Positions 3,691-24,697 of a DNA stretch of 50,850 nt are shown one piece after another. Numbering within the stretch: the stretch's first letter is position 1; the number at the start of each line of letters is the position of its first letter. Origin of the DNA: Lachnospiraceae bacterium (lineage in GTDB: Bacteria; Bacillota; Clostridia; Lachnospirales; Lachnospiraceae); assembly GCA_017408025.1 (NCBI GenBank), contig JAFQVJ010000070.1:1-50850 (forward strand), given 5' to 3'. The notes beneath the pieces were generated by a model. It did no database searches. It was not told the origin of the DNA and saw only the letters and a list, made by a program, of their open reading frames with translations. Both the position numbers and the translations under genes were made by a program.

Positions 3691-3692
3691 TT

Positions 3693-3983: not shown

Positions 3984-3987
3984 TAAA

Positions 3988-4668: not shown

Positions 4669-4680
4669 GAGGTATGAAAA

Positions 4681-6436: not shown

Positions 6437-6486
6437 TTTACAAACAGATGTTCGAATGGTAAAATACATACAAGAACAAATGTTTG
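6437..6486 (+). promoter_or_regulatory. SigA promoter flanked by two LexA-like (SOS) boxes
   Basis: TTTACA (6437-6442) and TAAAAT (6460-6465) are separated by 17 bases, a good housekeeping promoter. Two 14-mers of the form CGAAC-N4-GTTCG frame it. CAAACAGATGTTCG (6441-6454) overlaps the -35, and AGAACAAATGTTTG (6473-6486) lies at the start of the transcript. Their centres are 32 bp apart, about three helical turns. Each differs from the Bacillus/Clostridium LexA consensus at one or two outer positions. The downstream genes belong to DNA-repair-linked families, so SOS control is plausible. Confidence 0.65.
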
Positions 6487-6498
6487 GAAGTGATTTAT

Positions 6499-8025
6499 AT
6501 GAATATTATTAGAATAGACAATGACATACAGCAGGATTTTACTGGGGAAAACGGCATAATTGAGCAACATAAAAGAGTACCTTATGAGGATGCCACAGCC
6601 ATAAGAGATATTTCTTGGAAACTAAAAATCCTAACAGACGCAGCAAAATATGATGTTGCTTGTACTAGCAGCGGTGTTGAGAGAAAGGGCAATGGCCGCG
6701 ATATGGGTAATGCTGCGGCCTGTGGTATATGCCATGCATTTGCTGCAGATGGCAGATGCATTTCACTTCTTAAGATACTTATGTCTAACGAGTGTGTTTT
6801 TGATTGCAAATATTGTATAAATCGTAAGTCCAATGATGTGCCACGAGCTACATTTACACCGGACGAGATATGCAAGCTTACCATGGAGTTCTATAGAAGA
6901 AATTATATTGAAGGCCTCTTTCTAAGCTCTGGAGTTGTGGAAAATCCAAATCACACTATGGAGCAGATGTATGAGGCTATTAGAAAGTTAAGAGTGGAAT
7001 GTAGGTTCAATGGATATATTCACGTGAAGGCTATACCTGGTGCGGCGCCAGAATTAGTGGAGGCCATAGGATACTTAACTGACAGAATGAGCATCAATCT
7101 GGAGCTACCTACAGGCGATGGACTAAAAGCTATGGCACCCCACAAAACGAGAAATACTATACTTAAGCCTATGAGAGAGATACAGGTAGGCATACATAAT
7201 AACCGAATCACACACGGACTGACAGACAAGCGTATCCCTATGCAGATAAGAAACTGTACGGCTAAGATGTATAAAGAAAGCATGGCGTTACCAAGGAAGG
7301 ATATTCTTTTATCAGATAAATCTACAAATTGCGTGGCAGAGTCGAAACAAGATTATATAGTAGGTACAAAGGGAAAATATTTTGTTCCAGCTGGTCAGAG
7401 TACGCAGATGATTATAGGTGCAACACCTGAGAGTGATTATCATATTATGAATGTAGCACAGGCATTGTATGACAATTATGATTTAAAAAGAGTATTTTAC
7501 TCTGCATACATCCCTATAAATGAGGATTCGAAACTCCCATCCCTGGATACAAAACCGCCACTTTTGAGAGAACATAGATTGTATCAGGCTGATTGGTTAC
7601 TTAGATTTTATGGCTTTAAGGCAGAGGAATTGTTGTCGGAGGAGAGACCTTTTTTTAATGAGAAGATAGACCCGAAATGTGACTGGGCAGTGCGCCATTT
7701 AGAACAGTTTCCAGTTGAGATAAACACAGCTGATTTGTCAGTTTTACTTAGAGTGCCGGGTATAGGAGTAAAGAGTGCAAGACGTATTGTTATGGCAAGA
7801 AAACACGGAAACATTGATTTTCATGATTTGAAAAATATGGGAGTAGTGTTAAAGCGTGCTCTCTATTTTATAACATGCAAGGGCAAGATGATGTATAGTA
7901 CGAAAATAGAAGAAAACTATATTGTCAATCATCTTGTGTATAATGAGCCACCAGAGAAGATATTTAAAACGGAGAATACAGGTTATCATCAGTTGAGCTT
8001 GTTTGATATTGGAATGGTGAGGTGA
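6499..8025 (+). CDS. Radical SAM protein, DNA modification/repair type
   Basis: A 508-residue radical SAM enzyme with the cluster motif CVFDCKYC (CxxxCxxC, about residues 97-104) and a C-terminal helix-hairpin-helix (LLRVPGIGVKSARRIV, about 415-430) of the kind that binds DNA. This combination, next to the following gene, matches the family annotated as putative DNA modification/repair radical SAM protein, which is genomically linked to a uracil-DNA-glycosylase-like partner. Its reaction is not known to me. ATG 6499 is chosen because GGAAGTG lies just before it. It is co-transcribed with the next gene and sits behind LexA-like boxes, supporting a damage-related role. Confidence 0.85.
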   Translation: MNIIRIDNDIQQDFTGENGIIEQHKRVPYEDATAIRDISWKLKILTDAAKYDVACTSSGVERKGNGRDMGNAAACGICHAFAADGRCISLLKILMSNECVFDCKYCINRKSNDVPRATFTPDEICKLTMEFYRRNYIEGLFLSSGVVENPNHTMEQMYEAIRKLRVECRFNGYIHVKAIPGAAPELVEAIGYLTDRMSINLELPTGDGLKAMAPHKTRNTILKPMREIQVGIHNNRITHGLTDKRIPMQIRNCTAKMYKESMALPRKDILLSDKSTNCVAESKQDYIVGTKGKYFVPAGQSTQMIIGATPESDYHIMNVAQALYDNYDLKRVFYSAYIPINEDSKLPSLDTKPPLLREHRLYQADWLLRFYGFKAEELLSEERPFFNEKIDPKCDWAVRHLEQFPVEINTADLSVLLRVPGIGVKSARRIVMARKHGNIDFHDLKNMGVVLKRALYFITCKGKMMYSTKIEENYIVNHLVYNEPPEKIFKTENTGYHQLSLFDIGMVR

Positions 8026-9393: not shown

Positions 9394-10845
9394 TTATCGG
9401 CTATATTCTGAAAGTAAACCTTTCTTCATATCAAAGAGCTTGTCGGATAAATCTACATAAACCTTATGAGGATTTACAAGTCGACGAGTTTCATCCCACA
9501 GTGTTTTCTGTTCATTCTTGCAGTATTCAGTGATTTCTTTGACCGAAGGAGATTGATATACACAGATACCGTTTTTAAATACAGGAACTGGTAGCTCGCG
9601 TACAGTAAAAGTGCCTGCCTCAAAAGTTGTCTTTTTCCATGTTTCGATAGGGTCGAAGATGGTCAAGTCTTTGTCCTCATAGAAAGCTTCACCTGTAAGG
9701 GCGATAATATCTGCACGAAGCATTCCAGTTTCTTTATCGTATAGACGGAATACTGTTTTATTGCCCGGATTAGTGATTTTAACACTGTTTTCTGAGAGCT
9801 TGATCTTAGGCTCGTAGCAGTCCTTATCTTCATTCCATATAGCAGCTAATTTGTATACTCCACCGAAGGCAGGGCAATCTTTAGAGGTGATAAGGTTTGT
9901 ACCCACACCCCATGATGTAATCTTAGCGCCTTGAGCTTTTAAGCTGTCAATAAGATATTCATCTAGATCACTTGAGGCAGAGATAATGGCATCTGTAAAG
10001 CCTGCCTGGTCAAGGAGTACGCGAGCCTTCTTTGAAAGATATGCAAGGTCACCACTGTCCAGTCTTATACCATAGTTCCTTAACTCAATTCCTGAAGCTT
10101 TCATTTCTTTGAATACGCGTATAGCGTTTGGTACGCCTGAGTGAAGAGTGTCATAGGTGTCAACCAGCAATATACACGCTGTAGGATAGAGCTCGGCATA
10201 TGTCTTGAAGGCTGTGTATTCATCAGGGAAACTCATTATCCAGCTGTGTGCGTGGGTGCCCTTGATAGGAATATCCCACATCTCCCCAGTGAGAACATTG
10301 GAAGTACCCACACATCCAGCGATAACAGCGGCACGGGCACCATATATACCTGCATCAGGTCCTTGGGCCCTCCTTAAGCCAAATTCCATAACACCATCGC
10401 CCTTTGCTGCATAGCATACTCTTGCCGCTTTTGTAGCGATAAGGCTCTGGTGATTTATAATATTGAGGAGAGCGGTTTCTATAAGCTGGGCCTCCATGAT
10501 AGGAGCGATAACCTTAACCAGCGGTTCCATAGGGAATACGACAGTTCCCTCTGGAATGGCATAAATGTCACCTGAGAAATGGAAGGAGCTCAAATAAGAT
10601 AGAAAGTCCTCATCAAATATTTTTAATCCACGTAAATACTCGATATCTTCATAGGAAAATCTCAAATTTTTGATGTAATCAATAACCTGCTCCAGACCGC
10701 AGGCAATAGCGTAACCACCATCACTTGGATTCTTACGGTAGAACATATCAAATATAACACGCTTATTATTTTTACTTTTAAAATAGCCCTGCATCATAGT
10801 TAATTGGTATAAATCTGTCAATAATGTAAGATTTCTTTCACCCAT
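9394..10845 (-). CDS. pncB: Nicotinate phosphoribosyltransferase
   Basis: A 483-residue enzyme converting nicotinate and PRPP to nicotinate mononucleotide in the NAD salvage pathway. Family hallmarks are the N-terminal LLTDLYQLTMMQGY, the active-site region GTHAHSWIMSFPDE with the histidine phosphorylated during ATP-coupled turnover, and LVDTYDTLHSGVPNAI. Length is normal for the bacterial form. The start has AAGGAGG close upstream. It is transcribed alone on the minus strand, divergent from the unknown cluster at 11117, with which it shares a 270-base upstream region. Confidence 0.95.
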   Translation of the reverse strand: MGERNLTLLTDLYQLTMMQGYFKSKNNKRVIFDMFYRKNPSDGGYAIACGLEQVIDYIKNLRFSYEDIEYLRGLKIFDEDFLSYLSSFHFSGDIYAIPEGTVVFPMEPLVKVIAPIMEAQLIETALLNIINHQSLIATKAARVCYAAKGDGVMEFGLRRAQGPDAGIYGARAAVIAGCVGTSNVLTGEMWDIPIKGTHAHSWIMSFPDEYTAFKTYAELYPTACILLVDTYDTLHSGVPNAIRVFKEMKASGIELRNYGIRLDSGDLAYLSKKARVLLDQAGFTDAIISASSDLDEYLIDSLKAQGAKITSWGVGTNLITSKDCPAFGGVYKLAAIWNEDKDCYEPKIKLSENSVKITNPGNKTVFRLYDKETGMLRADIIALTGEAFYEDKDLTIFDPIETWKKTTFEAGTFTVRELPVPVFKNGICVYQSPSVKEITEYCKNEQKTLWDETRRLVNPHKVYVDLSDKLFDMKKGLLSEYSR

Positions 10846-10877: not shown

Positions 10878-11097
10878 TGTATGATTACCTAATTTTATCA
10901 TGAACAGAATACTTTGTGTAAAAAATATAATGTTTAAAATAGTATTTTTTAGCTTTTCCTATTTGGCTTTTTTCAATGTATCAATAAAATGTGTAAAAGA
11001 TGCGCAAAATGACGAAAAGTGTCTGAAAATTGTACATGCTTTTTCTCGAATTTGCTGTTGATTTAGTTTACTTTAGTAACAGAGAGGTAATCATACA
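10878..11097. repeat. Inverted 13-bp repeat in the pncB/cluster intergenic region
   Basis: TGTATGATTACCT (10878-10890) and its exact reverse complement (11085-11097) lie near the starts of the two divergent transcription units, about 195 bases apart. Each copy is 20-35 bases upstream of a start codon, which would suit a shared regulator acting symmetrically or an RNA-level site. The rest of 10846-11116 holds no gene. Confidence 0.5.
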
Positions 11098-11116: not shown

Positions 11117-11482
11117 ATGAAGAAGGAGAGTTCGATTATCAAAAGATGGGAAAATGCGAAAGTTATAACAGGGGTAGTCACATCGGCGATGCTTAGCTTT
11201 ATATCGTTAGCGGTATGCATGGTGATTTCGTTTTTGGGAATGTTATTTGAAAGTGGTGCAGATGGAAAGCGAACATGCTTTTTTGATACATTATACTTTG
11301 AGTCCGTAACAGGAAGCGACGGGGCAGTCACCATGTCCATGGGGTTTACAGGAACAGTATTTCCTATTTTAGTCTGGCTTATAGTAGTATTTTTGTTTTG
11401 CTTTATTTCATTTTATTTTGCAAAAAGGATTCTTATATACAGACAAAGATTGATAGAGGAGATGAATGAAGCGAACATATAG
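11117..11482 (+). CDS. Two-TM membrane protein, first gene of unknown cluster
   Basis: A 121-residue membrane protein I do not recognise. It has a basic N-terminus, a first membrane segment (about residues 18-45), an extracytoplasmic loop of about 35 residues rich in Gly, Ser and Asp, and a second segment (about 80-103), ending in a charged cytoplasmic tail. The start has AAGGAGG eight bases upstream. It overlaps the M50-like gene by 17 bases if that gene starts at ATG 11466. It opens a seven- to eight-gene run in the same direction, so it is likely a structural or accessory part of the same system. Confidence 0.7.
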   Translation: MKKESSIIKRWENAKVITGVVTSAMLSFISLAVCMVISFLGMLFESGADGKRTCFFDTLYFESVTGSDGAVTMSMGFTGTVFPILVWLIVVFLFCFISFYFAKRILIYRQRLIEEMNEANI

Positions 11483-11954
11483 AATAGAGGAGGTCAGCTT
11501 GTGGCTGATATTTATGACTATGGCAAAACAGCTCAAATGGCTAACTATTATAGTAGCATTAGAGGCGGTGGTATTAGCTTGTGTCGGAGCATTCACAGAG
11601 GCAATATATTTTAGCTTAATTTTTTTTGTAGGAGTGATTGGCTCATATTCAATACACGAGTATGTACATATATTACTGTTAAGGAGAAATGGTGTATCGC
11701 AGGTAAATGTAGGAAGCTCCTTTCTAAAGTTTTCGATTATACCAGATAAACAATTAAGAGGAAAAGAACTGATTATTGTAGCGGTATCCGGACCGATTGT
11801 ATGCGGTTTAATTGGTGGCATATCTGCAATAATAGCTTTGTTGTCTGGAAGCTTGTTTCTTAAGATATTGGCAATGATTTATAGTTTTCATTTAATAAAT
11901 TTGATTCCAGTATTTGGAGATGGGAAAATGTTTATTAAAGGTTTGTTTACATAA
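11466..11954 (+). CDS. Small M50-like intramembrane zinc metalloprotease
   Basis: A 162-residue, very hydrophobic protein with the site-2 protease signature: HEYVH (HExxH, about residues 64-68) within a membrane segment, and a distal INLIPVFGDGK (about 144-155) matching the N-P-x-x-D-G motif that supplies the third zinc ligand. M50 enzymes cut within or next to the membrane. The gene directly before a small membrane peptide makes that peptide, or its leader, an obvious candidate substrate; this is inference. Two starts are possible. ATG 11466 has AGAGGAG, and TTG 11499 has GAGGAGG and would remove the overlap with the previous gene. Confidence 0.75.
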   Translation: MKRTYRIEEVSLWLIFMTMAKQLKWLTIIVALEAVVLACVGAFTEAIYFSLIFFVGVIGSYSIHEYVHILLLRRNGVSQVNVGSSFLKFSIIPDKQLRGKELIIVAVSGPIVCGLIGGISAIIALLSGSLFLKILAMIYSFHLINLIPVFGDGKMFIKGLFT

Positions 11955-11993
11955 CTACTTTAATAAAAATCTATGGGAAAGGAGGAAAAAGCT

Positions 11994-12233
11994 ATGTTGT
12001 TGGCATTAGAAAACAAAATGATTAATGTATTAGCATGTATCAAGAATAAGTTTGACAATATGCTTGTTGAGTGCAATGCATGGTATGTAGTTTTGTTAGC
12101 TGTATTACTTTGTCTGGCATTTACAATAGTTTCTGGACTTGTAATCTGGTGTGTAGTGTACAAGGGAAAATCGTTTACAGGCGATTGGAAATGGGAGCTT
12201 AGTGGAGTATCTGTAAAAGCCGAATGTAAGTAA
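11994..12233 (+). CDS. Small Cys-containing membrane peptide, candidate precursor
   Basis: A 79-residue peptide with an amphipathic N-terminus containing two Cys (MLLALENKMINVLACIKNKF, then VECNAW), one membrane segment with two more Cys (about residues 33-56), and a short C-terminal tail rich in Trp, Gly and Ser that ends in a Cys-Lys. ATG 11994 is chosen because AAAGGAGG at 11978-11985 precedes it at ideal distance. ATG 11973 lies upstream of that site. It sits between a membrane protease gene and a thiol-disulfide protein gene and is followed by a stable hairpin, the arrangement seen for peptide precursors. I know no family for it. Confidence 0.65.
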   Translation: MLLALENKMINVLACIKNKFDNMLVECNAWYVVLLAVLLCLAFTIVSGLVIWCVVYKGKSFTGDWKWELSGVSVKAECK

Positions 12234-12240
12234 TGAGGGG

Positions 12241-12274
12241 AGGGTTGTATCGGATGAAAATCTGATGCAATCCT
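12241..12274 (+). other. GNRA-capped hairpin between peptide gene and downstream genes
   Basis: A 15-bp stem including four G-U pairs (AGGGTTGTATCGGAT with ATCTGATGCAATCCT), closed by a GAAA tetraloop. It begins 7 bases after the peptide stop. No proper T run follows, so it is more likely a 3'-end stabiliser or partial terminator. Such hairpins let a small first gene be made in excess over the genes behind it. Confidence 0.7.
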
Positions 12275-12296
12275 TTACCTGGTAGAGGAAATATTT

Positions 12297-13781
12297 ATGA
12301 AGGATATTGTAAGGAAAATAGTAGGGGTACTGATTTTTGTAGTAATCGTCGTTGGAATTATCTATCTGAATAATAGGCAGGCTGATGAAGAGGGGATATA
12401 TAAAGAAACGACCATAGCAGATTTAAAAAATATTGATGATAAAGAATATTATGTTGTCTATTATAGCTCTAGCTGTGCCTCATGTATGAAGTTTGACGAG
12501 GATGTATCAGAAGTAAGAGATGAATATGTCCGCATGAAGGACAAGATAATTTATGGAGTGAATGTTGACTCAGACGAAGCGTTTACAGATGAAGTGATGG
12601 AGTCGTTCGGAGTTGAAGGCGTACCATTTGTAGTCAGATATGTCAATGGAATGCAGGAGGACATACTGTATGAGGATATTAAAAAGGATGAGATAATCCA
12701 TTTTTTTGATGTGGGTGCAAAATCATCTCTTGTGTATTTTTTTTCGCCTACATGTGTCAGCTGCCATAAGGTTGAGGAATACTGTTTGGATATAATAGAG
12801 CAATATGAGGATATAGAGATTTATAAGTATTCAATAGCAGAACCTGCCAATAAGGGGTTATTGAATAAATATTGTAATGCATATAGCGTATCAAAGGATG
12901 AAATAGGTACAGTTCCTATTATATTTGTCAGGGATACATATCTGTATGGAGAAGACAATATAGAGGAAAAGCTTGAAAAAATTATCACTTCAACTGACAG
13001 GGGAAATACATTGATTATAGAAGCAGATGAGAATGATATTTCGAAAGAATACCAGTCATTTAAGGCTATGGATTTATTAAAGGTGTGTGGAGCAGCACTC
13101 ATTAATGGATTAAATCCCTGTTCTCTCTCAATGATTTTCTTCCTGTGTATGCTACTTGAATGTAAGAAGGACAAGCTACTGAAAATGGGAATATTTTTCT
13201 CGCTCGGAAAATGCGTAGCATTTATTTTGCTGGGAACTATATTTTATAAGATGCTACATATCATCAACGGTAGCTATATTGCAAGAATTATCAACGTGAT
13301 AATGCTGATACTTGTACTTATATGTATGGTGTTAAACATAAATGATTATATAGCAATAAAAAGGGACAGGCTAAGCGACATGCGTGCCCAGCTACCGTCA
13401 AAGGTACGTAGCTTCAATTTTGATTTGATAAAAAAATGGGGTATGCGATGTATTGAATCAAGATATGTTTTGATATTTGCGTTGCTCCTTGGAATGATTA
13501 TAGCTATGACGGAATTTTTGTGTTCCGGTCAGATATATTTATCGACTATAGTTACGATTATTCAGGTTCACGATGATATCAATGTATTAGCAGTACTGTA
13601 TCTTGTATTATATAGCGTGATATATTCACTGCCTACATTTATTATTGCAACATTTATCGCTGTTGGAAGGAATGTGTTTGACGTATCGAATATGTATACC
13701 AAGCATATTCATCAGATAAAGCTGATATATGCAACATTTTTTGCTGTAGTCGCAGCGTATCTGATAATTCAGATAGTGTAA
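12297..13781 (+). CDS. Double-thioredoxin / CcdA-DsbD-like membrane fusion
   Basis: A 494-residue protein with three parts. After an N-terminal membrane anchor (about residues 5-24) come two extracytoplasmic thioredoxin-like domains with active sites CASC (about 60-63) and CVSC (about 153-156). The C-terminal half has about six membrane segments with the paired cysteines of CcdA/DsbD proteins, in LNPCSLS (about 273) and FLCSGQ (about 408). DsbD-like proteins carry electrons across the membrane to reduce or rearrange disulfides outside. Having both thioredoxin domains fused on the N-side of the channel is unusual. Here the natural substrate would be a Cys-containing exported peptide. Its start has AGAGG upstream and follows the hairpin by 22 bases. 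Confidence 0.8.
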   Translation: MKDIVRKIVGVLIFVVIVVGIIYLNNRQADEEGIYKETTIADLKNIDDKEYYVVYYSSSCASCMKFDEDVSEVRDEYVRMKDKIIYGVNVDSDEAFTDEVMESFGVEGVPFVVRYVNGMQEDILYEDIKKDEIIHFFDVGAKSSLVYFFSPTCVSCHKVEEYCLDIIEQYEDIEIYKYSIAEPANKGLLNKYCNAYSVSKDEIGTVPIIFVRDTYLYGEDNIEEKLEKIITSTDRGNTLIIEADENDISKEYQSFKAMDLLKVCGAALINGLNPCSLSMIFFLCMLLECKKDKLLKMGIFFSLGKCVAFILLGTIFYKMLHIINGSYIARIINVIMLILVLICMVLNINDYIAIKRDRLSDMRAQLPSKVRSFNFDLIKKWGMRCIESRYVLIFALLLGMIIAMTEFLCSGQIYLSTIVTIIQVHDDINVLAVLYLVLYSVIYSLPTFIIATFIAVGRNVFDVSNMYTKHIHQIKLIYATFFAVVAAYLIIQIV

Positions 13782-13847
13782 GGAATGCAGATAGTATAAA
13801 AAGATAATAAAAGGAATGGATATAGTATGAGGATGGGGATTTGATAT

Positions 13848-14174
13848 ATGAAAAAAAGACAAAAAGAATGTGGGATAAGCATCTACTTTTTAGATGGCAG
13901 TAAAAATGTCGTCCATGGTGGAGGGCTGGCGGATATAAGAATAAAGGAAACATACATATTAGCTAAGAGCAGTCAACTTTATCAGAATGATGCTCCGTGC
14001 ATTATTATTAGAACTAAGATAATGAATCGTGTATATGAAGAGTTAAGAACATTTATCAAAGAAAAGATAAATGGTGGGAATAAGCAGTTATTTTGCACTG
14101 ATGATTTGCCAGAAGAATTCAGGGAAGCACTGGATTTAGAGGATGCAGCATATGTAATGGCAGAGGTTACATAG
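13848..14174 (+). CDS. Unknown small soluble protein of the cluster
   Basis: A 108-residue soluble protein I cannot assign. It has three Cys (ECG near residue 8, APC near 50 and LFC near 83), a Gly-rich turn (VVHGGG), and an alternating strand/helix pattern ending in acidic helices (DDLPEEFREALDLED). It follows the thioredoxin fusion by 66 bases and precedes the cysteine desulfurase by 13, so it probably works with them. It may be a sulfur acceptor or scaffold for the desulfurase, but no SufU or IscU zinc or cluster motif is visible. A weak site (GGGGATTTG) precedes ATG 13848. Confidence 0.55.
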   Translation: MKKRQKECGISIYFLDGSKNVVHGGGLADIRIKETYILAKSSQLYQNDAPCIIIRTKIMNRVYEELRTFIKEKINGGNKQLFCTDDLPEEFREALDLEDAAYVMAEVT

Positions 14175-14187
14175 AGAGGAGAGAAAT

Positions 14188-15327
14188 ATGATTTATCTGG
14201 ATAACGCAGCCACAACAAGGATGACGAACAATGCTATCAGGCAAATGTATAAAATTATGAACGAAGATTATGGAAATCCCTCCAGCATATACGAATATGG
14301 AATTGCCAGTAGAGGAAGAATTGAAAACGCAAGGAATGTGATAGCATCAACGCTACAGGTACTGCCCGAGGAAATATATTTTACATCTGGTGGGACGGAA
14401 GCTAATAACTGGGCTATTGTGGGAACTGCATTTTCAAAAAGAGATAAAGGCAGTCACATTATTACATCAAGGGTGGAGCATAAATCAGTTATAAAAACCT
14501 GTGAATTCCTAGAGAGGCTAGGTTACGAGATAAGTTATATCGATGTAAACGAAGCGGGGGTAATAGATGTAGGGCAGTTGGAAAAAGCCATACGTCCAGA
14601 TACCATATTGATAAGTGTTATGTGTATCAATAATGAGGTTGGTTCAGTTATGCCATTGAAGGAAATAGGAGAGCTTGCAGCATCAAGGAATGTATTGTTT
14701 CATACTGATGCAGTTCAGGCATATGGTCATATACCTATAGAGTGCCATGAATGGCATATTGATATGTTAAGTGTAAGTGCACACAAATTTCACGGTCCCA
14801 AGGGGGTTGGATTTCTGTATATAAGGAATGGAACGAATATTTACCCACTGATAAATGGAGGCAATCAGGAGAGGGGTATGCGTTCAGGTACAGAAAATGT
14901 GGCAGGAATTGTTGGGATGGCAGAGGCTGCAAGGGAAATGTATGAAAACATGGATGAAGAGATGATGAAAATAAAAGAGCTTAAGAATTTGTTATATAGG
15001 GAGCTGCACAATAGAGTAGAAGGAATACACGCCCATGGTGATTATATAGAGGGCGCCTCAAATATATTAAGCGTTGTAGTTGATGGTGTGGATGCGGTTT
15101 GTCTGGTGGATAGTCTAGGGCAAAATGAAGTGTGTGTGTCAGCAGGTTCAGCTTGCAATTCCAGGGAAATTCAATCCTCTCATGTGTTAAAGGCTATGGG
15201 AGTTGGTGAGATGGCAGCTAGGTCAACCATAAGGTTGTCATTATCTAAATATAATAACAGAGAAGAAATTCTTAAGGTGGCGGAAATATTTGAGGAGACA
15301 GTAAATCATTTAAGAGAGATATATTAG
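14188..15327 (+). CDS. Cysteine desulfurase (NifS/IscS family)
   Basis: A 379-residue PLP enzyme that removes sulfur from cysteine and holds it as a persulfide. Visible hallmarks are the N-terminal IYLDNAATTRM, the PLP lysine in SAHKFHGPKG (about residues 197-206), the HTDAVQA cofactor region, and the catalytic cysteine loop SAGSACNS (about 317-324). The GAGAGGAGAG site sits just before the ATG. Its position in this cluster is the odd part. No IscU, SufB or tRNA-thiolation gene is near, so it may supply sulfur to a local modification, or simply be a neighbour. The class is clear from the motifs; the acceptor is unknown. Confidence 0.9.
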   Translation: MIYLDNAATTRMTNNAIRQMYKIMNEDYGNPSSIYEYGIASRGRIENARNVIASTLQVLPEEIYFTSGGTEANNWAIVGTAFSKRDKGSHIITSRVEHKSVIKTCEFLERLGYEISYIDVNEAGVIDVGQLEKAIRPDTILISVMCINNEVGSVMPLKEIGELAASRNVLFHTDAVQAYGHIPIECHEWHIDMLSVSAHKFHGPKGVGFLYIRNGTNIYPLINGGNQERGMRSGTENVAGIVGMAEAAREMYENMDEEMMKIKELKNLLYRELHNRVEGIHAHGDYIEGASNILSVVVDGVDAVCLVDSLGQNEVCVSAGSACNSREIQSSHVLKAMGVGEMAARSTIRLSLSKYNNREEILKVAEIFEETVNHLREIY

Positions 15328-15392
15328 GAATAAGGTAAGTTACAATGACAAGGCGAAAGCGTAATGTAATCAGCATAGAAAAGGAGAATGTG

Positions 15393-16124
15393 ATGGGTGA
15401 TAAAAAAATACTGGAAGTAAAAGATGTATCATTTGGATATGATAAGGTGGATGTGCTGAAAAATGTATCGTTTGTGGGAAATTTGGGAGAGGTTTTGGTA
15501 TTGGCAGGTCCAAATGGAAGTGGTAAAACTACGTTGATCAAGCTTATTTTTGATCTGTTGGAAAGAAAAAGAGGGGAGATATATTTAGGGAGCGAGGATG
15601 TTAGAAATATATCGGCTAAGAGCAAGATAATGTATCTTCAAAGCGATAATATGATACCACAGTTTCTCACAGGTGATGAGTATGTAAAGCTTATGTGTAA
15701 GATGTACAACACACAGATGAACGAGGAATTATATGGGAAATTAGTGAAGTATTATGAGATGGACGAGCATATAGACAGCCTTATTGAAAGCTATTCACAT
15801 GGAATGGTAAAAAAGATTCAATTGATTATGGCATTTCTTATCCAAAGTGACATTACAGTTATAGACGAAACCCTCAATGGTATTGACATTAAGGCAAAGG
15901 AGATAAGCTCCGTCTTGATTAAGAGGATGGTGGAGAAAAATAAGCTTATCATCTTATGTACTCACGATTTGCTGTTAGCGGAAAAAATCGGTGACAGAGT
16001 AGAGCTGATGCATAATGGCAGGATTTTTGCTGATGTGCCACTTCCGTTAAATGATGATGATAAATCTCTTGTAAGTGTGTTTAAAAGGATGATTGGTTTT
16101 GAGGAGTCAGAGTATGAGTTATAG
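15393..16124 (+). CDS. ABC transporter ATP-binding protein (cluster 11117-17540)
   Basis: A 243-residue ABC ATPase. Walker A GPNGSGKT lies near residues 40-47, a signature-like SYSHGMVKK near 134, and Walker B ITVIDETLNG near 155, followed by an H-loop (CTHDLL). The signature is LSGGQ-poor, as in exporters that couple to ABC-2-type permeases. ATG 15393 is preferred over the upstream ATG 15345 because AAGGAG lies at 15381-15386. The permease ORF begins inside its last codons, so both are made together. It likely powers export of the cluster's product; the substrate is inferred. Confidence 0.85.
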   Translation: MGDKKILEVKDVSFGYDKVDVLKNVSFVGNLGEVLVLAGPNGSGKTTLIKLIFDLLERKRGEIYLGSEDVRNISAKSKIMYLQSDNMIPQFLTGDEYVKLMCKMYNTQMNEELYGKLVKYYEMDEHIDSLIESYSHGMVKKIQLIMAFLIQSDITVIDETLNGIDIKAKEISSVLIKRMVEKNKLIILCTHDLLLAEKIGDRVELMHNGRIFADVPLPLNDDDKSLVSVFKRMIGFEESEYEL

Positions 16125-16716
16125 TAGAATTGTCTGTTTGGTAAAAATGTTTTTCCTGTTTTTTTACCGGAACATATTGTGCTTTGGTATGCTTAGAAGC
16201 AAAATCTTTAGAGTCTTGGCAGGGACGGTAATGGTAGGGCTTGTAGCACTGGTTGCAGTTGTAATGACTCTTTTCTTCCACAATGTGGACAGCTCGTTGC
16301 AACAGACGTCTATTGTGTTGGATACATACTGCTGCTCCGTTATAATGTTGACATTTGTAGTATTTGTATTTATGAAGGTACTATTTATGAAAAAGGGCAT
16401 ATTCCTAAATATCACGCAACAAATGCCTGTAACCCGTCGGGAGCTAAATATATCAATGCTTATATATGAGGTTGTTATAACTATAAGTGCGATAGTAATT
16501 CTGTCCACGTCAATGTCTGTTGCGGTACTTATAGACAGCGGTATGAAACTGTTTACAAGAGTTATATGTAATATAGTATTTACCTCCATAACCGCGTATT
16601 TTATTTTGGAATTTTTGTTTGTCTTACAGCACTTATACGATTTTTTAGATTGGATAAGATCAAAAATATTCTTCTTTTATGCACCATGGCCACACTACTT
16701 TACAATGTATACATAG
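16114..16716 (+). CDS. ABC permease, N-terminal part (possible frameshift product)
   Basis: A 200-residue membrane protein with about four to five membrane segments. ATG 16114 has GAGGAG before it and overlaps the ABC ATPase gene by 11 bases. The next ORF overlaps it by 67 bases in another frame. A run of six T (16641-16646) sits just before the point where the downstream frame takes over. Hydrophobic patterns of the two ORFs join smoothly there, suggesting one permease of about 480 residues. The C-terminal 15 or so residues of this ORF (after YDFLDW) would then be out-of-frame sequence. Confidence 0.65.
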   Translation: MSYSRIVCLVKMFFLFFYRNILCFGMLRSKIFRVLAGTVMVGLVALVAVVMTLFFHNVDSSLQQTSIVLDTYCCSVIMLTFVVFVFMKVLFMKKGIFLNITQQMPVTRRELNISMLIYEVVITISAIVILSTSMSVAVLIDSGMKLFTRVICNIVFTSITAYFILEFLFVLQHLYDFLDWIRSKIFFFYAPWPHYFTMYT

Positions 16717-17540
16717 TATTCCTGCCAACTATGCTACAGGAAATTTTGTTTGCATATACTGATAATGAGGGGACAAGCCCGTATGCCACATATTCATTTA
16801 TAGCTGATAAGATAGGATTTTTAGGAGCAGCAGGTGTATTTTTTGTTATCTGTGCCATATTGGCTTCTCTAATATTGATGTTGCAGACGGATATGTATGA
16901 GAGACAAAATACTTATATCCAGATATTTAAGAGAATGGGTAGAGTTTCTGTTTTAGGAGCATATATCAAGGCGTTTAGACGACATGTGGACGTGTATAGC
17001 TATTTTATTATTGCAATGTACATATATGTCGTACTAAAGGGGCAGGATGTTCAGATGGCGTGGTGCACAATATTGTTACTGACCTTTGAGGGCACATATG
17101 CGTATAACCAGTCAGAGGAGCTACGAGGAATTCTTGTGCAAAAAAAATATTCTGTGTGGAGAGATTATGTATATCTGATAAGCTCGCAGTTTGTGTATAT
17201 CAGTGTATTTTCAATTCCCATTCTAGCTATTGAGGTAGCTACAGGTACAACTATATGGAAAATACTATTGATGTATCTGTCGATTTTAGCATCGGTTATT
17301 GTATTTACAACTATCGGCATTATGTTTCCGTCTAAGCAAGAGAATCCTTTTTCGGCTTTTATAGGAACAGTCATAATTATTCTGTGGCTTGTGTGCATTA
17401 TTGTGGCATATATATTGATAAATAAAGAGGTGGCACTTTACATAATGCTTGCAGCATCCATAGTGCTGGCTATCAGGCTTGCTGTTGTGGGAATGGATAA
17501 ATTGCTTAAAATCAAAAGGTGTTCTTGTAATAATTCCTAA
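16650..17540 (+). CDS. ABC permease, C-terminal part (possible frameshift product)
   Basis: A 296-residue, strongly hydrophobic ORF with about seven membrane segments and a basic, Cys-containing end (KRCSCNNS). The only early start is a TTG at 16650 with no convincing ribosome binding site, and it lies 67 bases inside the previous ORF. That argues that it is the second half of a single ABC-2-type permease. The alternative is two separately translated permease subunits. A true frameshift would inactivate transport unless ribosomes slip at the T run. Confidence 0.6.
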   Translation: MDKIKNILLLCTMATLLYNVYIVFLPTMLQEILFAYTDNEGTSPYATYSFIADKIGFLGAAGVFFVICAILASLILMLQTDMYERQNTYIQIFKRMGRVSVLGAYIKAFRRHVDVYSYFIIAMYIYVVLKGQDVQMAWCTILLLTFEGTYAYNQSEELRGILVQKKYSVWRDYVYLISSQFVYISVFSIPILAIEVATGTTIWKILLMYLSILASVIVFTTIGIMFPSKQENPFSAFIGTVIIILWLVCIIVAYILINKEVALYIMLAASIVLAIRLAVVGMDKLLKIKRCSCNNS

Positions 17541-17626
17541 AATTGTGTATACTTTATTTTATTGGATAAAAATGCTTAAACCATGTACATAATGTGGATT
17601 ATCGCGGGGAAATGGAGGACTAACTT

Positions 17627-18361
17627 ATGATAAGATTTATACTAATAGTATTGTTTTTAGGTGTATTTTTTATATCAAGCCTACCCATATTCCCAGTTAT
17701 ATTGCTGGTGGGATTGTTTGATAGAAGGCTGCGAGACAGAATGAGTTATGCTATAGTTTCATGGGCATTTGGATTTATTGTCCGTATAGCAGGAACTAAG
17801 GTGGATATTATCGGTTTCGATAATGTTCCTAAGGACGAAGCAGTTCTTTATGTTGGAAATCACAGAAGTATGTTTGATATAGCTATAAACTATTCAGTAT
17901 TGCCACCACTTATGGGCTTTGTATCTAAGAAGGAGATGAAGAAATTTCCAATTCTTTCATGGTGGATGGTTTTAGTCAATTGCCTTTTCTTGGACAGAGA
18001 GAATATCAAGGAAGGTATGAAGACAATTATAGCAGGCACAGAGAAGCTTAAGAATGGCATATCAATATTTATATTTCCAGAGGGAACAAGAAGTAAGAAG
18101 GAAAGTGAGATGCTGGAGTTTAAGGAAGGAAGCTTGAAGATGGCAGAGAAGGCGGGAAGCTATATAATTCCTGTAGCTATCACAAATACAAGTGCATGCT
18201 TCGAAGATCATTTTCCTAAGATTAAAAAACAGCATGTGATAATCGAGTATGGCAAACCTATAGATTTGTCAGCTATGGATAAAGAAGAGAGAAAACATGC
18301 GGGAGCGTATACAAGAAATATAATTCAGGGAATGGTAAACAGAAACAGAGAGCTTATCTAA
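17627..18361 (+). CDS. plsC: 1-acyl-sn-glycerol-3-phosphate acyltransferase
   Basis: A 244-residue membrane-associated acyltransferase making phosphatidic acid for phospholipid synthesis. The acyltransferase motifs are clear: NHRSMFD (HX4D, about residues 78-84), the LFLDRE block, FPEGTRSKKE (about 148-157) and a VPVAI-like IIPVAITNT. An N-terminal membrane segment anchors it. ATG 17627 follows a GGAGG site. It lies 86 bases after the permease ORF and may start its own transcript. Confidence 0.92.
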   Translation: MIRFILIVLFLGVFFISSLPIFPVILLVGLFDRRLRDRMSYAIVSWAFGFIVRIAGTKVDIIGFDNVPKDEAVLYVGNHRSMFDIAINYSVLPPLMGFVSKKEMKKFPILSWWMVLVNCLFLDRENIKEGMKTIIAGTEKLKNGISIFIFPEGTRSKKESEMLEFKEGSLKMAEKAGSYIIPVAITNTSACFEDHFPKIKKQHVIIEYGKPIDLSAMDKEERKHAGAYTRNIIQGMVNRNRELI

Positions 18362-19098: not shown

Positions 19099-20988
19099 AT
19101 GGATGATAAATTATTGGAAATGCTAGGAACAGCAAGAAAAGAGCAAAATATAGCATCTAAGTTGTTATGTGAAGGCATATGTACAGAAGATATGTATAAT
19201 AAGGTGGAACGTGGAGAAAGAGTCTTAGATAGAATGGCAATAAAACGTTTATTGTCGAGATTAGGGGTTGATAATGGCAGCTATGAAAATTATCTGGAAT
19301 ATGCTGACTATATAGAATGGAAAACCCGAATGGACATTGTCAATGCAATTGAAAAGCAGGAATTGGCAAAAGCAGAGAGGCTTTTAGAGAAATATTTCTT
19401 ATCAGATAAAGATGCTAGAAACAGCAGCAGAGATAATATTCAACAGCAGTTTTATATTTTTATGAAGCTACAGATAATACGCCATAAAAATAGAGAAGAA
19501 TATGAGAAAAAGGCTTGCGGAATGTATGAAGAGGCTTTGAAAAAGACAGTTCCCAATATTGATAAAAGCCATATAAATAATGTGCTGTTATCACCAGTAG
19601 AATTTATAATGGCAGTCGAATATAAGAGAAGAAAGAAACCTTACGAATCGGTTGAAGCCATACTGAAAATGTATAAGGAATTCTTTGAGTATATGGAGAA
19701 GGCACCCTTTGGAAAATTGTCAAAGACAAAGGTATATCCAAAATTGGTGACATGCTTGTATGAGGATATAAGCAGTAGATTGATGATTGATACCTCAGAT
19801 AATAATAGGGAAATATGCGAAAGGCTATTAAAGTTATGTGATAGGTCATTGTTAATAATAAAAGAAAGAAAACATATGTACTATCTTATAGAGCTGCTGA
19901 AAATTAGTATTGAATTAAGAAAATTTTTAATAAAATATCTGAATGATGTCAACAGAAAGAAAAAGTATGCTGATATTATTGCAGAAACAGAATTACAGGT
20001 AAAAACAATGAAAGACTTGTATGAGGAAAATAATGTATCAGCTTATATGCTAGATGATTGTTATATGTACAGAGAAAGCAGTGTATATTGTATACCTGAT
20101 GTGATTAAAACACGAAGAAAAATGATGCATATGACACAAAAAGAATTATCTGATGGTTTATGCGATGTTAAGACCTTGTCACGGGAAGAAAATGGACAAG
20201 TCGCCATACAAAAGTACATATTTAAAGAGGTTTTTAAGAGATTGGGTCTATATCCTGATTATATAAATATGGGCATAGTCACAGGAGAGAAAGATGTAGT
20301 AGAGTTATATGAAGAAATTCGCTTTGCATCAAACGGATTTAAATATGACGATGTTGATAAGCTTTTATTAGAATTAAAGAGAAAGCTTAAAGATGATAAG
20401 CATCCAATTAATAATCAGGTCATAGCAGCAATAGAAAGCAGAAACAAGTGGCAAACTAGGCGGATAGAGGTGGAAGAATGTATAAATACATTGAAAGTGG
20501 CGCTAGACGGGACTGTAAATTTGAAAGATATATTTGAAGGTGACAATCAAATATTTTTGACCACAAGAGAAGTTACACTTGTATATCAGATGTCATTAGT
20601 GTATAAAGAAAATGGTCAATACACTGAGGCATACAATTATATCAAAAGAATATGGGATTATTGTGAAAATTGGGAGAAACAAGGTATAGAGGATGGAAGA
20701 ATAGCAATATACGAAATGTTAATGGGATATATGTCAAATTTACTTGGTGACTTGGGAAGATACCATGAAGCCAATGACATAGCAGATAAATCAATAAGAT
20801 TAGCCCTCAGATTGAGAAGAGGTATGGTAATTCACCAAAGTCTCTACGATAAAGCATGGAATAATAATGAGAGTAAAAAACAAGGCTTTGATTATAAAAA
20901 CGAGTTGGAGCGGTGCATTTGTATAGCCCGACTCATGGGGGATATAAATGATGAGCTATTCTATAAAGATGAGATGGCTAATCTATAG
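19099..20988 (+). CDS. Double HTH-TPR regulator (PlcR/Rgg-like, RRNPP type)
   Basis: A 629-residue protein built of two similar halves. Residues 1-60 form an XRE-type HTH (LLCEGICTEDMYNKVERGER) followed by about 270 residues of helical repeats. A second HTH starts near 335 (VIKTRRKMMHMTQKELSDGL and KTLSREENG) and is followed by another helical region to the end. One HTH plus TPR repeats is the layout of PlcR, Rgg and similar regulators that bind short secreted peptides; two in tandem is unusual. Directly convergent with it, overlapping by 11 bases, is a 49-residue secreted pre-peptide gene. That is strong context for a peptide-sensing regulator. Start ATG 19099 follows a GGTGGGATC site. Confidence 0.8.
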   Translation: MDDKLLEMLGTARKEQNIASKLLCEGICTEDMYNKVERGERVLDRMAIKRLLSRLGVDNGSYENYLEYADYIEWKTRMDIVNAIEKQELAKAERLLEKYFLSDKDARNSSRDNIQQQFYIFMKLQIIRHKNREEYEKKACGMYEEALKKTVPNIDKSHINNVLLSPVEFIMAVEYKRRKKPYESVEAILKMYKEFFEYMEKAPFGKLSKTKVYPKLVTCLYEDISSRLMIDTSDNNREICERLLKLCDRSLLIIKERKHMYYLIELLKISIELRKFLIKYLNDVNRKKKYADIIAETELQVKTMKDLYEENNVSAYMLDDCYMYRESSVYCIPDVIKTRRKMMHMTQKELSDGLCDVKTLSREENGQVAIQKYIFKEVFKRLGLYPDYINMGIVTGEKDVVELYEEIRFASNGFKYDDVDKLLLELKRKLKDDKHPINNQVIAAIESRNKWQTRRIEVEECINTLKVALDGTVNLKDIFEGDNQIFLTTREVTLVYQMSLVYKENGQYTEAYNYIKRIWDYCENWEKQGIEDGRIAIYEMLMGYMSNLLGDLGRYHEANDIADKSIRLALRLRRGMVIHQSLYDKAWNNNESKKQGFDYKNELERCICIARLMGDINDELFYKDEMANL

Positions 20989-21127
20989 AAGTATGACCAT
21001 TGCCACTGCGCTTGCTATATGTGCTAATGCTTGAAGTTGAGTTTGTTGAATTGCTCTCATAGCAAAACGAGCTTGCAATAATAATAACAAGAGTTGCAGC
21101 TAATAAGTTCCTTAAAAATTTTTTCAT
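20978..21127 (-). CDS. Small secreted pre-peptide, candidate signalling peptide
   Basis: A 49-residue peptide starting with a classical signal sequence (MKKFLRN then LLAATLVIIIASS), followed by a Ser/Thr-rich, hydrophilic tail of about 28 residues with Gly, His, Lys and Arg near the end. AAAGGATT lies just before ATG 21127. Upstream in-frame starts lack a site. It is convergent with the double HTH-TPR regulator and overlaps its last 11 bases. Signal peptide plus short tail beside an RRNPP-type regulator is the usual layout of a PapR- or Phr-like precursor. Which residues form the mature signal cannot be told. Confidence 0.7.
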   Translation of the reverse strand: MKKFLRNLLAATLVIIIASSFCYESNSTNSTSSISTYSKRSGNGHTSID

Positions 21128-21140
21128 AAGTAATCCTTTC

Positions 21141-21156
21141 TGCATTTCGAAATGCA
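21141..21156. promoter_or_regulatory. 16-bp perfect palindrome before the pre-peptide gene
   Basis: TGCATTTCGAAATGCA is a perfect palindrome 13 bases upstream of the pre-peptide start codon and downstream of its predicted promoter. It could be an operator for an HTH dimer or a short mRNA hairpin next to the ribosome binding site. Confidence 0.55.
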
Positions 21157-21191
21157 ATCTAAATAATGATTGGCACATGATTATATTAAAT

Positions 21192-21297
21192 ATTATAAGC
21201 GTAAAACAGAGAAAAGCAATGGACAGAATAGTCTTCTTATTGGGTGTAAAAGAAGACTATTCTGTCCATTGAAAAGGTATACGTAAAGTGGTATATA
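21192..21297. promoter_or_regulatory. Divergent promoters joined by a 22-bp-arm inverted repeat
   Basis: Arms of 22 bases (21217-21238 and 21250-21271), perfectly complementary, surround an 11-base centre. The outer ends CAATGG and CCATTG each supply the TTG of a -35 element. On the plus strand TTGAAA (21269-21274) is 17 bases from TATATA (21292-21297). On the minus strand TTGCTT (21219-21214) is 16 bases from TATAAT (21197-21192). The plus promoter would serve the secreted-protein/ABC operon and the minus promoter the pre-peptide. The layout suggests one operator controlling both. Confidence 0.65.
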
Positions 21298-21426
21298 AAA
21301 TGTATATCTATAGTGTGCACATTGGGATAAAGATAATGTTAAAAGTAAAATGGAGGTAGATGTAAAGACATAACTACTCGAATCTTACGAAAAGATAGCA
21401 AATAAAAAATAGAGGAGGTACTTTAG

Positions 21427-21852
21427 ATGAAAGTATTAAAAAGGGTTACAACCTTGATGTTAGCGATGGTGATGGCATTTATGATGGTGGAGAGTGTTTC
21501 AGCAGAAACATATCCATGGACATCAGTTAAAACTCCAGGAAATACGGGATGTATGGTTAGGGATGTAAAGATACCTGCATATACAGGAAAAATGACCTTT
21601 AAAGTGACAACTTTAAGTGGAAACTGCAGTTATCTTCTAGGTAAAGTGGTATCGACCTATGGCTGTAAATATTATATTAGTAATTCGTCAAAGAGTGTAA
21701 TGATTACCAAGGTTAATGGAGAGCAGTCGTTTTATATGAAGTTTATTGATTTCAATATTCTCACAGAGCAGTATATGTATTTACGTTGCTCTGTAGAGCA
21801 TAATGCAAGCATAGGCGAAACTGTCTATGCATCAGGAATAATATATAACTAA
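21427..21852 (+). CDS. Secreted Cys-containing protein, first gene of ABC operon
   Basis: A 141-residue protein with a clear signal peptide (hydrophobic 8-22, cleavage after VSA about residue 26). The mature part of about 115 residues is beta-rich, with four Cys (NTGCMV, GNCSY, YGCKY, LRCSV) that could form two disulfides. ATG 21427 has AGAGGAGG before it. It could be an exported effector, toxin or peptide-like product handled by the following genes; I know no family. Its promoter overlaps the inverted repeat at 21217-21271. Confidence 0.7.
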   Translation: MKVLKRVTTLMLAMVMAFMMVESVSAETYPWTSVKTPGNTGCMVRDVKIPAYTGKMTFKVTTLSGNCSYLLGKVVSTYGCKYYISNSSKSVMITKVNGEQSFYMKFIDFNILTEQYMYLRCSVEHNASIGETVYASGIIYN

Positions 21853-21871
21853 GATAAAGGTGTTGGTAAAT

Positions 21872-23095: not shown

Positions 23096-23846
23096 TGTAC
23101 TGTTTTTGAAAAGAATATTTACCAGCAAAACATATTGGCTGTCAGTTATGGCAGCCATATTGCTGTTGCTATGTTCTATCATATATATAGACCCTCTCAC
23201 AGGAGAAAAATATACCTTTGTGTCGTTGTTTAATAATGCTACGGTAAAGGAAGCTTTAGAGAGTGGCAGTATATCTATGAGTAGCATTGTCCTGGGCTAT
23301 GATACCAGTTATCTTTGGATGTTTTGTCCGATTATAGTGGGCATACCATGTGTTATAGTAAATAAAACAGAAAGATTTGTTTTGTTTAGAACAAATAAGA
23401 ACAAATATTTGTTCTCTAAATATTTATCAAGCCTTTTTTCAAGTGGGCTCATAATTCTTTTAGCATATATAGTATTTGGAAGCTTAAGCATGGTGGTGGC
23501 AAATGAAAATATGTGGGATGAGTATTTTGCAAGAAAGCTGATGTCAGTATTTTGTCTGGGAGTTATATCTGCCCTTCCAAGTATGGCTTTGTCAGAGTTT
23601 GTACACAATAAATATTTGATACTATGTATTCCGTTTGTTTTGAATTATTTTATGTATACCTTCCTTGGCAATATTATTTCCTATGACATGAACAAATACA
23701 TTAATCCAGGTACTTATCAGATATTATTCTTGTATGACAAAGATATGGTTATTCCATGTTCGGTTATTCTACTTATATTGGTAGTGGCATGCGGTTTATT
23801 AAAGAAGCTACTAATGGAAAGAAGGTGCGATTGTGGGCAACAGTAA
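23088..23846 (+). CDS. ABC-type membrane protein (permease 1)
   Basis: A 252-residue membrane protein with about six membrane segments and no obvious soluble domain. ATG 23088 overlaps the upstream stop codon (ATGAGTAG), so it is translationally coupled. It overlaps the following permease gene by 14 bases. Both permeases precede a single ATPase gene, fitting an ABC-2-type transporter with two different membrane subunits. Confidence 0.7.
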   Translation: MSSVLFLKRIFTSKTYWLSVMAAILLLLCSIIYIDPLTGEKYTFVSLFNNATVKEALESGSISMSSIVLGYDTSYLWMFCPIIVGIPCVIVNKTERFVLFRTNKNKYLFSKYLSSLFSSGLIILLAYIVFGSLSMVVANENMWDEYFARKLMSVFCLGVISALPSMALSEFVHNKYLILCIPFVLNYFMYTFLGNIISYDMNKYINPGTYQILFLYDKDMVIPCSVILLILVVACGLLKKLLMERRCDCGQQ

Positions 23847-24696: not shown

Positions 24697-24697
24697 T

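Follow-up and report, generated by a model that had tools for sequence, protein, structure and literature searches.

A conserved gene cassette of Clostridia and Bacilli for the probable biosynthesis and export of a two-cysteine peptide

We analyzed a stretch of 50,850 nucleotides (the window) from a Lachnospiraceae bacterium (assembly GCA_017408025.1, contig JAFQVJ010000070.1), whose genome comprises 2.35 Mb in 71 contigs, with attention to 8 genes at positions 11117 to 17540 that all lie on the + strand, are joined by overlaps or short gaps, and include a small gene for a 79-residue peptide (Table 1). An initial annotation, made from the sequence letters, had described these genes as a candidate peptide maturation and export system, and the gene identities it named were recovered, including the HEYVH and NLIPVFGDG motifs of an M50-like membrane protease and a membrane peptide with several cysteines, which we place at residues 15, 27, 40, 53, and 78 around a single hydrophobic segment (33-51). 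The sequence of an ATP-binding cassette (ABC) permease was present as described, with the correction that it falls into 2 overlapping open reading frames (ORFs) in different frames, so that the 8 genes correspond to 9 ORFs; both permease ORFs align in tblastn to a single 472-residue permease of Roseburia. Shine-Dalgarno-like sequences precede most of the start codons, and the first gene, for a protein with 2 transmembrane (TM) segments, overlaps the M50 gene by 17 nt. The M50 protein carries its motifs at residues 64 and 145 and has 4 hydrophobic segments. The start of the ABC ATPase gene is more likely at 15393, where the ribosome-binding site is better, and the top NCBIfam match of this protein was of the DrrA type, followed by PmtA, an exporter of phenol-soluble modulins (PSM), both under cut-off.

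Table 1. Genes and other features of the peptide cluster in the window
Feature	Position	Strand	Remarks
Upstream region	10878..11097		bounded by a perfect 13-nt inverted repeat (10878-10890 / 11085-11097, 194 nt apart)
2-TM protein, 121 aa	11117..11482	+	two TM segments; 44% identity to Roseburia counterpart; candidate M50 partner or immunity protein
Minimal M50 / site-2-type membrane protease, 162 aa	11466..11954	+	HEYVH and NLIPVFGDG motifs
Precursor peptide, 79 aa	11994..12233	+	predicted 28-aa leader and 51-aa core A29-K79; C53 and C78 invariant
Strong RNA hairpin	12234..12282	+	directly follows peptide stop codon, ends before TrxCcdA gene
Trx-Trx-CcdA fusion (TrxCcdA), 494 aa	12297..13781	+	three redox cysteine pairs; Pfam thioredoxin, cysteine motifs
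108-aa soluble protein	13848..14174	+	one invariant cysteine (PC-I motif) in alignment of 7 sequences; TrxCcdA partner
NifS/IscS-like cysteine desulfurase	14188..15327	+	TIGR03402 441.6 bits, under cut-off
ABC exporter ATPase	15345..16124	+	ABC_tran over Pfam cut-off; 56% identity to Roseburia counterpart
ABC permease	16114..17540	+	two ORFs in different frames, 16114-16716 and 16650-17540

Relatives of the peptide were identified by tblastn at E up to 1 in 6 of 72,556 plasmid records, the closest in Roseburia sp. 831b (54% identity, E 4e-16), followed by Peribacillus muralis (E 4e-6, with the gene absent from the annotation) and, at E about 0.01-0.02, by 3 Paraclostridium bifermentans records and plasmid pHOB2 of Staphylococcus epidermidis. 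An alignment of 5 sequences keeps M1, W30, A36, V37, T44, W52, C53, F61, G63, G71, C78, and K79. A profile scan of genome contigs added 19 loci (Kandleria vitulina, S. intermedius, 2 Paraclostridium, and fourteen Bacillus plus Metabacillus), bringing the family, which spans Clostridia and Bacilli, to 25 loci with 26 peptides. Metabacillus contributes a second peptide that enters the peptide count only; in Metabacillus kandeliae (L039), 2 nearly identical peptide genes stand in tandem at 10013-10228 and 10298-10513. In all 26 peptides, the part from (A/G)W onward, here called the core, measures 50-52 residues and has cysteines at core positions 25 and 49/50, and it is preceded by N, Q, or H. 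The N-terminal part ranges from 19 to 48 residues and shows a mean pairwise identity of 21.5% among 13 representatives, versus 54.5% for the core. None of the 26 leaders ends in the double glycine of double-glycine leaders. For the window core with one disulfide, we computed an average mass of 5678.8 Da (18 Da less for a cyclized form); the corresponding values are 5294.2 Da for B. haynesii and 5601.7 Da for the pHOB2 peptide. The initial annotation had held that a peptide gene unconserved beside conserved neighbors would speak against its proposal; the 54% Roseburia homologue and the purifying selection on the peptide in 2 Bacillus groups (pN/pS 0.19 over 45 pairs and 0.10 over 6 pairs) exclude this.

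The peptide is rare: sampling of the order gave profile matches in 1 of 344 genomes and sampling of the phylum in 3 of 398, counts that include the window genome itself; the phylum matches G750 and G921 were left out of the neighbor counts given below. An earlier tally of 4 in 299 genomes of the family includes 3 weak partial matches (18-21 bits within frames of 378-381 residues) that were discarded, and plasmid NZ_CP079740, which has the peptide and the permease, stays outside the 25-locus set. Viral and phage collections held no relative. Neither Pfam nor NCBIfam matched the window peptide at E up to 10, PADLOC and PHROG gave no match either, its relatives had weak library matches that all stayed under cut-offs, and the best match in a PDB profile search (E 0.044) was judged to be chance. 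Neither the peptide nor the gene set is described in the literature searched, which takes in few subscription papers or preprints, and the two-cysteine family is apparently undescribed.

We counted homologues of the window genes within 7 kb of the peptide at the 25 loci, which are not independent, since ten belong to the B. pumilus group, four to the B. licheniformis group, and four to Paraclostridium. The permease was identified at 24 loci, the 2-TM protein and the ATPase at 23 each, and the M50 protease at 22, and the 2-TM gene adjoins the M50 gene in all 22 loci holding both. Some loci are incomplete: the contig of L022 begins inside the permease, the fourth Paraclostridium locus (L024) is cut by a contig end 2.3 kb past the peptide, and Peribacillus (L018) retains only a 40-residue fragment of a PqqD domain, described below. 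An ATPase match at L021 is a transporter 6 kb away, which was taken as unrelated and left out of the counts. Among plasmids, permease matches were confined to peptide-bearing records (2 of 2 for the Roseburia/Staphylococcus type and 3 of 3 for the Paraclostridium type), and among the 299 family genomes the permease was found in the window genome only. The peptide, M50 protease, 2-TM protein, and ABC transporter are a conserved unit over the 25 loci. The accessory genes are less constant, with a thiol oxidoreductase at 5 loci and the 108-residue protein and the desulfurase at 2 each, those of the window and Roseburia. Of the single eight-gene unit first proposed, the core of peptide, M50, 2-TM, and ABC genes thus stands, while the Trx-Trx-CcdA fusion (TrxCcdA) and the 108-residue protein form a separate module and the desulfurase is a feature of 2 loci. 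Among neighborhood searches of the kind suggested at that stage, the peptide made a working seed and TrxCcdA a poor one, its relatives lying mostly elsewhere; homologues that occur mostly apart, which had been named as evidence against a unit, were found for the accessory genes and not for the core.

Other genes accompany some of these clusters. In Roseburia, an IS110 transposase gene (L016 14265-15596) sits inside the cluster, with the desulfurase gene on one side and the ABC ATPase gene on the other. Pairs of a membrane protein gene and a small helix-turn-helix (HTH) gene flank clusters at L016 8733-9458, L024 433-1634, L019 3998-4654, and L023 8754-9478; the pair is DUF2975 with HTH_26 in Roseburia and alike in Paraclostridium, with other membrane proteins in Staphylococcus and Bacillus, and possible roles are regulation or immunity.

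HExxH was found in all 22 cluster M50 ORFs and the pattern N..P...DG in 7 of the 22; the shorter xxPxxxDG motif aligns in 7 of 7 sequences that represent every lineage, and the three Bacillus/Metabacillus proteins in this alignment have Y at the N position. The window protein scored 9.8 bits against a Pfam cut-off of 27.2, and the Roseburia protein matched PF11667 and PF02163 just under their cut-offs. The window M50 is homologous to the proteins of Roseburia and S. epidermidis and to the PqqD-M50 proteins of Paraclostridium (24% identity to the fusion, E 2.5e-5). In 18 loci, all from Bacillus, Metabacillus, and Paraclostridium, the M50 protease is fused to a PqqD domain, which resembles the recognition element (RRE) of ribosomally synthesized and post-translationally modified peptides (RiPPs) and scored 30.6 bits in B. 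haynesii against a Pfam cut-off of 23.4; with the Peribacillus fragment, PqqD homology was identified in 19 of 25 loci. It was absent from the window, Roseburia, Kandleria, and two Staphylococcus clusters, and in none of these 5 loci does the leader contain YxxP. In contrast, all peptides of 20 loci, namely the 18 fusion loci, Peribacillus, and L024, have a leader YxxP, followed by any residue and then V, I, or A, with M in L029. According to a 2026 paper (PMC13381572), most discrete lasso RREs bind the leader motif [Y/W]xxPx[L/V/I/A/F/Y], and YxxP is essential for RRE binding in another Bacillota family; this consensus fits 19 of the 20 YxxP loci, L029 with its M at the last position being the exception. 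Because the PqqD fusion and YxxP co-occur, the N-terminal part likely acts as a leader, with the M50 protease as its likely peptidase, at least in the PqqD loci, and we infer that the window peptide is cut in the same way. It is very likely, judging from conservation and gene company, that the peptide is the substrate of a leader-removing M50 protease and an ABC exporter; as the initial annotation had suggested, it is the best candidate, being conserved and accompanied by the core genes.

The RNA hairpin that follows the stop codon of the window peptide has an energy of -26.9 kcal/mol (z -6.25, with 0 of 200 shuffles as good), and z values of -0.85 to 0.95, with no hairpin, were obtained for three further gaps inside the operon and for the one behind it. 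A hairpin with z below -2 follows the peptide gene in 17 of the 25 loci, with sequences that differ between lineages. Partial terminators or stabilizers commonly lie 3' of a precursor gene when an excess of precursor is required, and the hairpin fits over-expression of the precursor. After the hairpin of the two Staphylococcus loci, no further gene lies nearby on the peptide strand, and there it may be a plain terminator.

The cysteine motifs of TrxCcdA are CASC, CVSC, NPC, and EFLC, and the cysteines of the two CxxC, NPC, and EFxC motifs were kept in 8 of 8 aligned sequences. Its thioredoxin matches exceed the Pfam cut-off, and its CcdA-like part is assigned from motifs and hydropathy, with no CcdA/DsbD Pfam model over cut-off and only DsbD_2 (E 9.4) and a weak NCBIfam ArsG-transporter match among library matches. 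A PDB profile search gave one weak thioredoxin for TrxCcdA and, for the 108-residue protein, a best E of 0.3, judged to be chance. The two proteins share an identical set of 7 of 299 family genomes, where their genes are direct neighbors in all but G260, in which about 2 kb separates them. The six other TrxCcdA/108-residue genomes have no peptide, and no desulfurase homologue was identified in 5-18 kb around the pair. The two genes thus form an independent module, which the peptide cassette appears to have acquired. In several of L009-L014, the pair adjoins what reads as a sugar-ABC-like operon. A genome contig scan seeded with TrxCcdA gave no match. Two thioredoxin domains, a CcdA-like membrane part, and three cysteine pairs recall DsbD/CcdA relays, from which TrxCcdA differs in being a single fusion and in its company, since in 7 of 7 genomes it occurs with a 108-residue protein that belongs to no named family.

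The thiol oxidoreductase takes two forms, TrxCcdA beside the peptide in the window and Roseburia and a protein that we take to be DsbA-like in Paraclostridium L017, L020, and L029. In the Bacillus, Metabacillus, Peribacillus, and Staphylococcus loci, no homologue of either protein was identified at distances of up to 7 kb from the peptide; other thioredoxins were not sought there. Two clostridial lineages thus carry different thiol oxidoreductases and other lineages neither homologue, a pattern suggesting that the cysteine pair does require handling, for which hosts equipped with Dsb/Bdb enzymes of their own would need no additional gene. The earlier proposal that thioredoxin domains handle the peptide cysteines is partly supported, with a thiol-redox protein at 5 of 25 loci; TrxCcdA itself occurs mostly elsewhere. 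The desulfurase scored below the TIGR03402 cut-off of 530.75 bits, which places it in the desulfurase superfamily short of the NifS equivalog, a common family with 5 matches in the window genome. DNA phosphorothioation was considered and rejected: although the desulfurase is scored as SspA/DndA by PADLOC, no Dnd/Ssp partner was among the hits for the other seven cluster proteins scanned.

The cluster occupies 6.8 kb between a gene at 9394-10845, which reads as and presumably is NAPRT-like, and an acyltransferase gene at 17627-18361. In 5 of 7 congeners these flanking genes are directly adjacent (119, 269, 225, 250, and 312 bp apart), and so the cluster is most simply an insertion of just these genes, horizontally acquired. 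Of the remaining congeners, one has 1.5 kb and other small ORFs between the flanks and one has the flanks on separate contigs; a search for the M50 protease at E up to 0.01 was negative in all seven.

Parts of the cassette resemble known systems, and in its proposed working it comes closest to the epipeptide operon epeXEPAB/yydFGHIJ of Bacillus subtilis, which likewise combines a small precursor, an M50 protease, and a two-gene ABC transporter (PMC10885120, PMC5808125). Its intramembrane protease EpeP is reported to suffice for EpeX production, and its deletion to leave some production (PMC10885120), which sets a precedent for an M50 protease acting in antimicrobial peptide production. Unlike that operon, the cassette has no radical SAM epimerase (none among the matches listed for the ten proteins at 11117-18358, and none annotated in the cluster genes of L016-L020), and it has a two-cysteine tail, an extra 2-TM protein, thiol-redox genes in the window, and a permease of 472-495 residues. 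The Bacillus, Metabacillus, and Paraclostridium clusters share a YxxPx[LVIAFY]-type leader and PqqD with lasso and LPP RiPPs that use discrete RREs; however, the RRE-like domain here is fused to the M50 protease, no lasso cyclase or kinase was seen, and the window, Roseburia, Kandleria, and Staphylococcus clusters are without domain and motif. The class II bacteriocins pediocin PA-1, with PedC, and EntV pair a disulfide peptide with a redox helper in the available parts of PMC4919988 and PMC6606811, as the cassette may do if its disulfide is real. In contrast to pediocin-type peptides, the family has no double-glycine leader, and no C39 peptidase was identified among the best 25 of 38 families for the 259-residue ATPase. 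Its hydrophobic helix also precedes the cysteine-closed part, whereas it follows that part in pediocin. One B. safensis strain mined with BAGEL4 and antiSMASH yielded other clusters and not this one, as listed in the available text of PMC7617318; that strain was not among the genomes checked for the peptide, which does occur in two others of the species, L030 and L038.

We consider it probable, from gene content and conservation, that the cassette serves the biosynthesis and export of a two-cysteine peptide that is secreted and is most likely a bacteriocin. The precursor would insert into the membrane with its N terminus inside and its C terminus outside, and the M50 protease, possibly with the 2-TM protein as partner, would remove the leader at the (N/Q/H)-(A/G)-W boundary, a site predicted from conservation. 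In Bacillus, Metabacillus, and Paraclostridium, where the association was observed, the PqqD/RRE domain fused to the protease would hold the leader by YxxP. The freed core of 50-52 residues would consist of a hydrophobic helix followed by a polar tail, and its invariant cysteines C25 and C49/50 would be joined by a disulfide. The ABC transporter may then export the peptide or protect the producer. In anaerobic Clostridia the cassette would bring its own thiol oxidoreductase, whereas elsewhere that of the host may serve. The product would kill or inhibit competing Gram-positive bacteria.

Products and chemistries other than a disulfide-bonded bacteriocin were weighed against the same evidence. 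A signaling peptide, either a pheromone or a stress signal, could be made by the same steps, since M50 proteases such as Eep also make pheromones, and several clusters are flanked by HTH genes paired with genes for membrane proteins, such as HTH_26 and DUF2975 in Roseburia; yet the 51-residue, strongly hydrophobic core with two invariant cysteines is far larger than known pheromones, the window cluster contains no regulator, and carriage on a small mobilizable plasmid with little else would be typical of bacteriocins. We consider a signal unlikely, even with the precedent of the yyd/epe operon, whose peptide, protease, and ABC genes were first found as a LiaRS inducer (PMC5808125, in the part available). 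Lower still is the likelihood that the core is a head-to-tail circular bacteriocin of the SpoIIM/DUF95 class, with A29 cyclized to K79. Similar size, a hydrophobic core, and ABC genes are shared, the N, Q, or H before the core recalls the asparaginyl cleavage site of subgroup ii, and a few circular clusters hold an M50 protease (PMC8659200, PMC8534725, both available in part). Against these stand the invariant cysteine pair and the absence of SpoIIM/DUF95 from the matches listed for the ten window proteins at 11117-18358 and from the annotations of the L016-L020 clusters, a DUF95 (SpoIIM) protein being part of every reported circular cluster.

The desulfurase, the 108-residue protein, and TrxCcdA might also act as a sulfur relay that modifies the peptide cysteines to a persulfide, trisulfide, or other form. 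Among the 25 peptide loci and the six other TrxCcdA loci, the three genes stand together only in the window and Roseburia, the 108-residue protein offers its one invariant cysteine, and the two cluster desulfurases are 52% identical, versus 42-44% between the window copy and four paralogues of its own genome; however, the Roseburia copy shares almost as much identity, 48%, with a NifS of the window genome. Further, the cluster has no known sulfur-inserting enzyme, the TrxCcdA pair persists in genomes with neither peptide nor nearby desulfurase, and 23 of 25 peptide loci are without all three genes. We regard such a relay as improbable, though less so than a circular product. The earlier suggestion that the desulfurase may supply sulfur for a modification of the peptide is not supported: the gene occurs in 2 of 25 loci, its family is a common one, and no observation pointed to such a modification. 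Most improbable of all is that unrelated membrane genes came together by chance in an island that is decaying. A broken permease frame in the window and a permease matching in two pieces on one Paraclostridium plasmid would suit it, but the same core genes stand beside the peptide in Lachnospiraceae, Staphylococcus, Paraclostridium, Bacillus, and Metabacillus, and the Bacillus peptides are under purifying selection.

One member of the family comes from a strain with antibacterial activity. The S. epidermidis homologue sits on pHOB2, a 9,323-bp mobilizable plasmid of strain 14.1.R1 that contains replication and mobilization genes, the peptide cassette, an HTH gene, and a few hypothetical genes. 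According to the available part of PMC4770681, the agent of this strain against P. acnes was obtained only from agar-grown cells, is proteinase-K sensitive and acid stable, and adsorbs to uncoated tubes; mass spectrometry gave PSM-beta, EsxA, and an HU-like protein, and the authors thought PSM-beta and EsxA unlikely causes. In the available text of PMC5347227 and PMC4770681, no gene is proven to be behind the activity and pHOB2 is not discussed as its source. Adsorption suits a hydrophobic peptide, heat lability (see below) suits it poorly, and the link between pHOB2 and the activity is a correlation only. The broadest account would join all of these parts: a new class of antibacterial peptides in Clostridia and Bacilli, with an M50 leader peptidase (RRE-guided in Bacillus-type loci), one disulfide, a thiol/sulfur relay in anaerobes (desulfurase, 108-residue carrier, CcdA, and two thioredoxins) by which the cysteine bond or a sulfur bridge is formed in the absence of oxygen, and the pHOB2 member as the agent, or one agent, of the anti-Cutibacterium activity of 14.1.R1. 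We hold this joint claim to be doubtful, if slightly less so than a signaling role.

Several observations weigh against a bacteriocin cassette. The scan pattern that found the 19 contig loci fixes core residues -1 to 9, so that conservation there is partly imposed, and the cysteines, W52, and F61-G63 lie outside it. Searches of the libraries and the PDB connected the core with no known bacteriocin. The counts are not independent, 15 of the 25 loci being from Bacillus and Metabacillus, and the association of YxxP with PqqD may be a single evolutionary event. The Kandleria locus (L021) has the peptide and the 2-TM gene alone, and the Kandleria genome gave no permease match in a search without positive control. 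In 8 of 25 loci, including all four Paraclostridium, Kandleria, and Metabacillus, the peptide gene is followed by no hairpin or by an unremarkable one. The window copy of the permease is frame-disrupted and may not work. Loss of activity at 60 C is unusual for a small bacteriocin. The activity of 14.1.R1 was lost after 10 min at that temperature (PMC4770681, available in part), and the authors who described the exceptional antimicrobial activity of the strain suggest a type VII secretion system (PMC5347227).

Further features lie around the cluster in the window. When the 281-nt region upstream of the cluster was shuffled 1000 times with its dinucleotides preserved, an inverted repeat as long as the 13-nt one appeared 5 times; the segment that the 13-nt repeat bounds is a possible regulatory or invertible segment (an invertible promoter), and no recombinase was seen beside it. 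Positions 394-5517 read as a Mu-like transposable phage (integrase-type transposase, ATPase, and capsid-like ORFs), and an ORF at 6484-8025, outside the inserted cluster, reads as radical-SAM-like. At 19099-25324, a 629-residue HTH_3 regulator is followed by a small secreted-looking protein, a 411-residue protein, two membrane proteins, and an ABC ATPase; the four middle proteins had no Pfam match at E up to 0.01, and the region is possibly a second peptide or immunity system.

The peptide family has no Pfam, NCBIfam, or PHROGs model (over cut-off where one exists) and no clear PDB relative, and the strict pairing of the Trx-Trx-CcdA fusion with the 108-residue protein is singled out in this bacterial family. 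If the cassette works as proposed, gut, skin, and soil bacteria would harbor candidate antimicrobials of about 5.2-6.0 kDa, leader removal by a membrane protease would be RRE-guided, and S. epidermidis 14.1.R1 would have a concrete candidate gene for its antibacterial activity.

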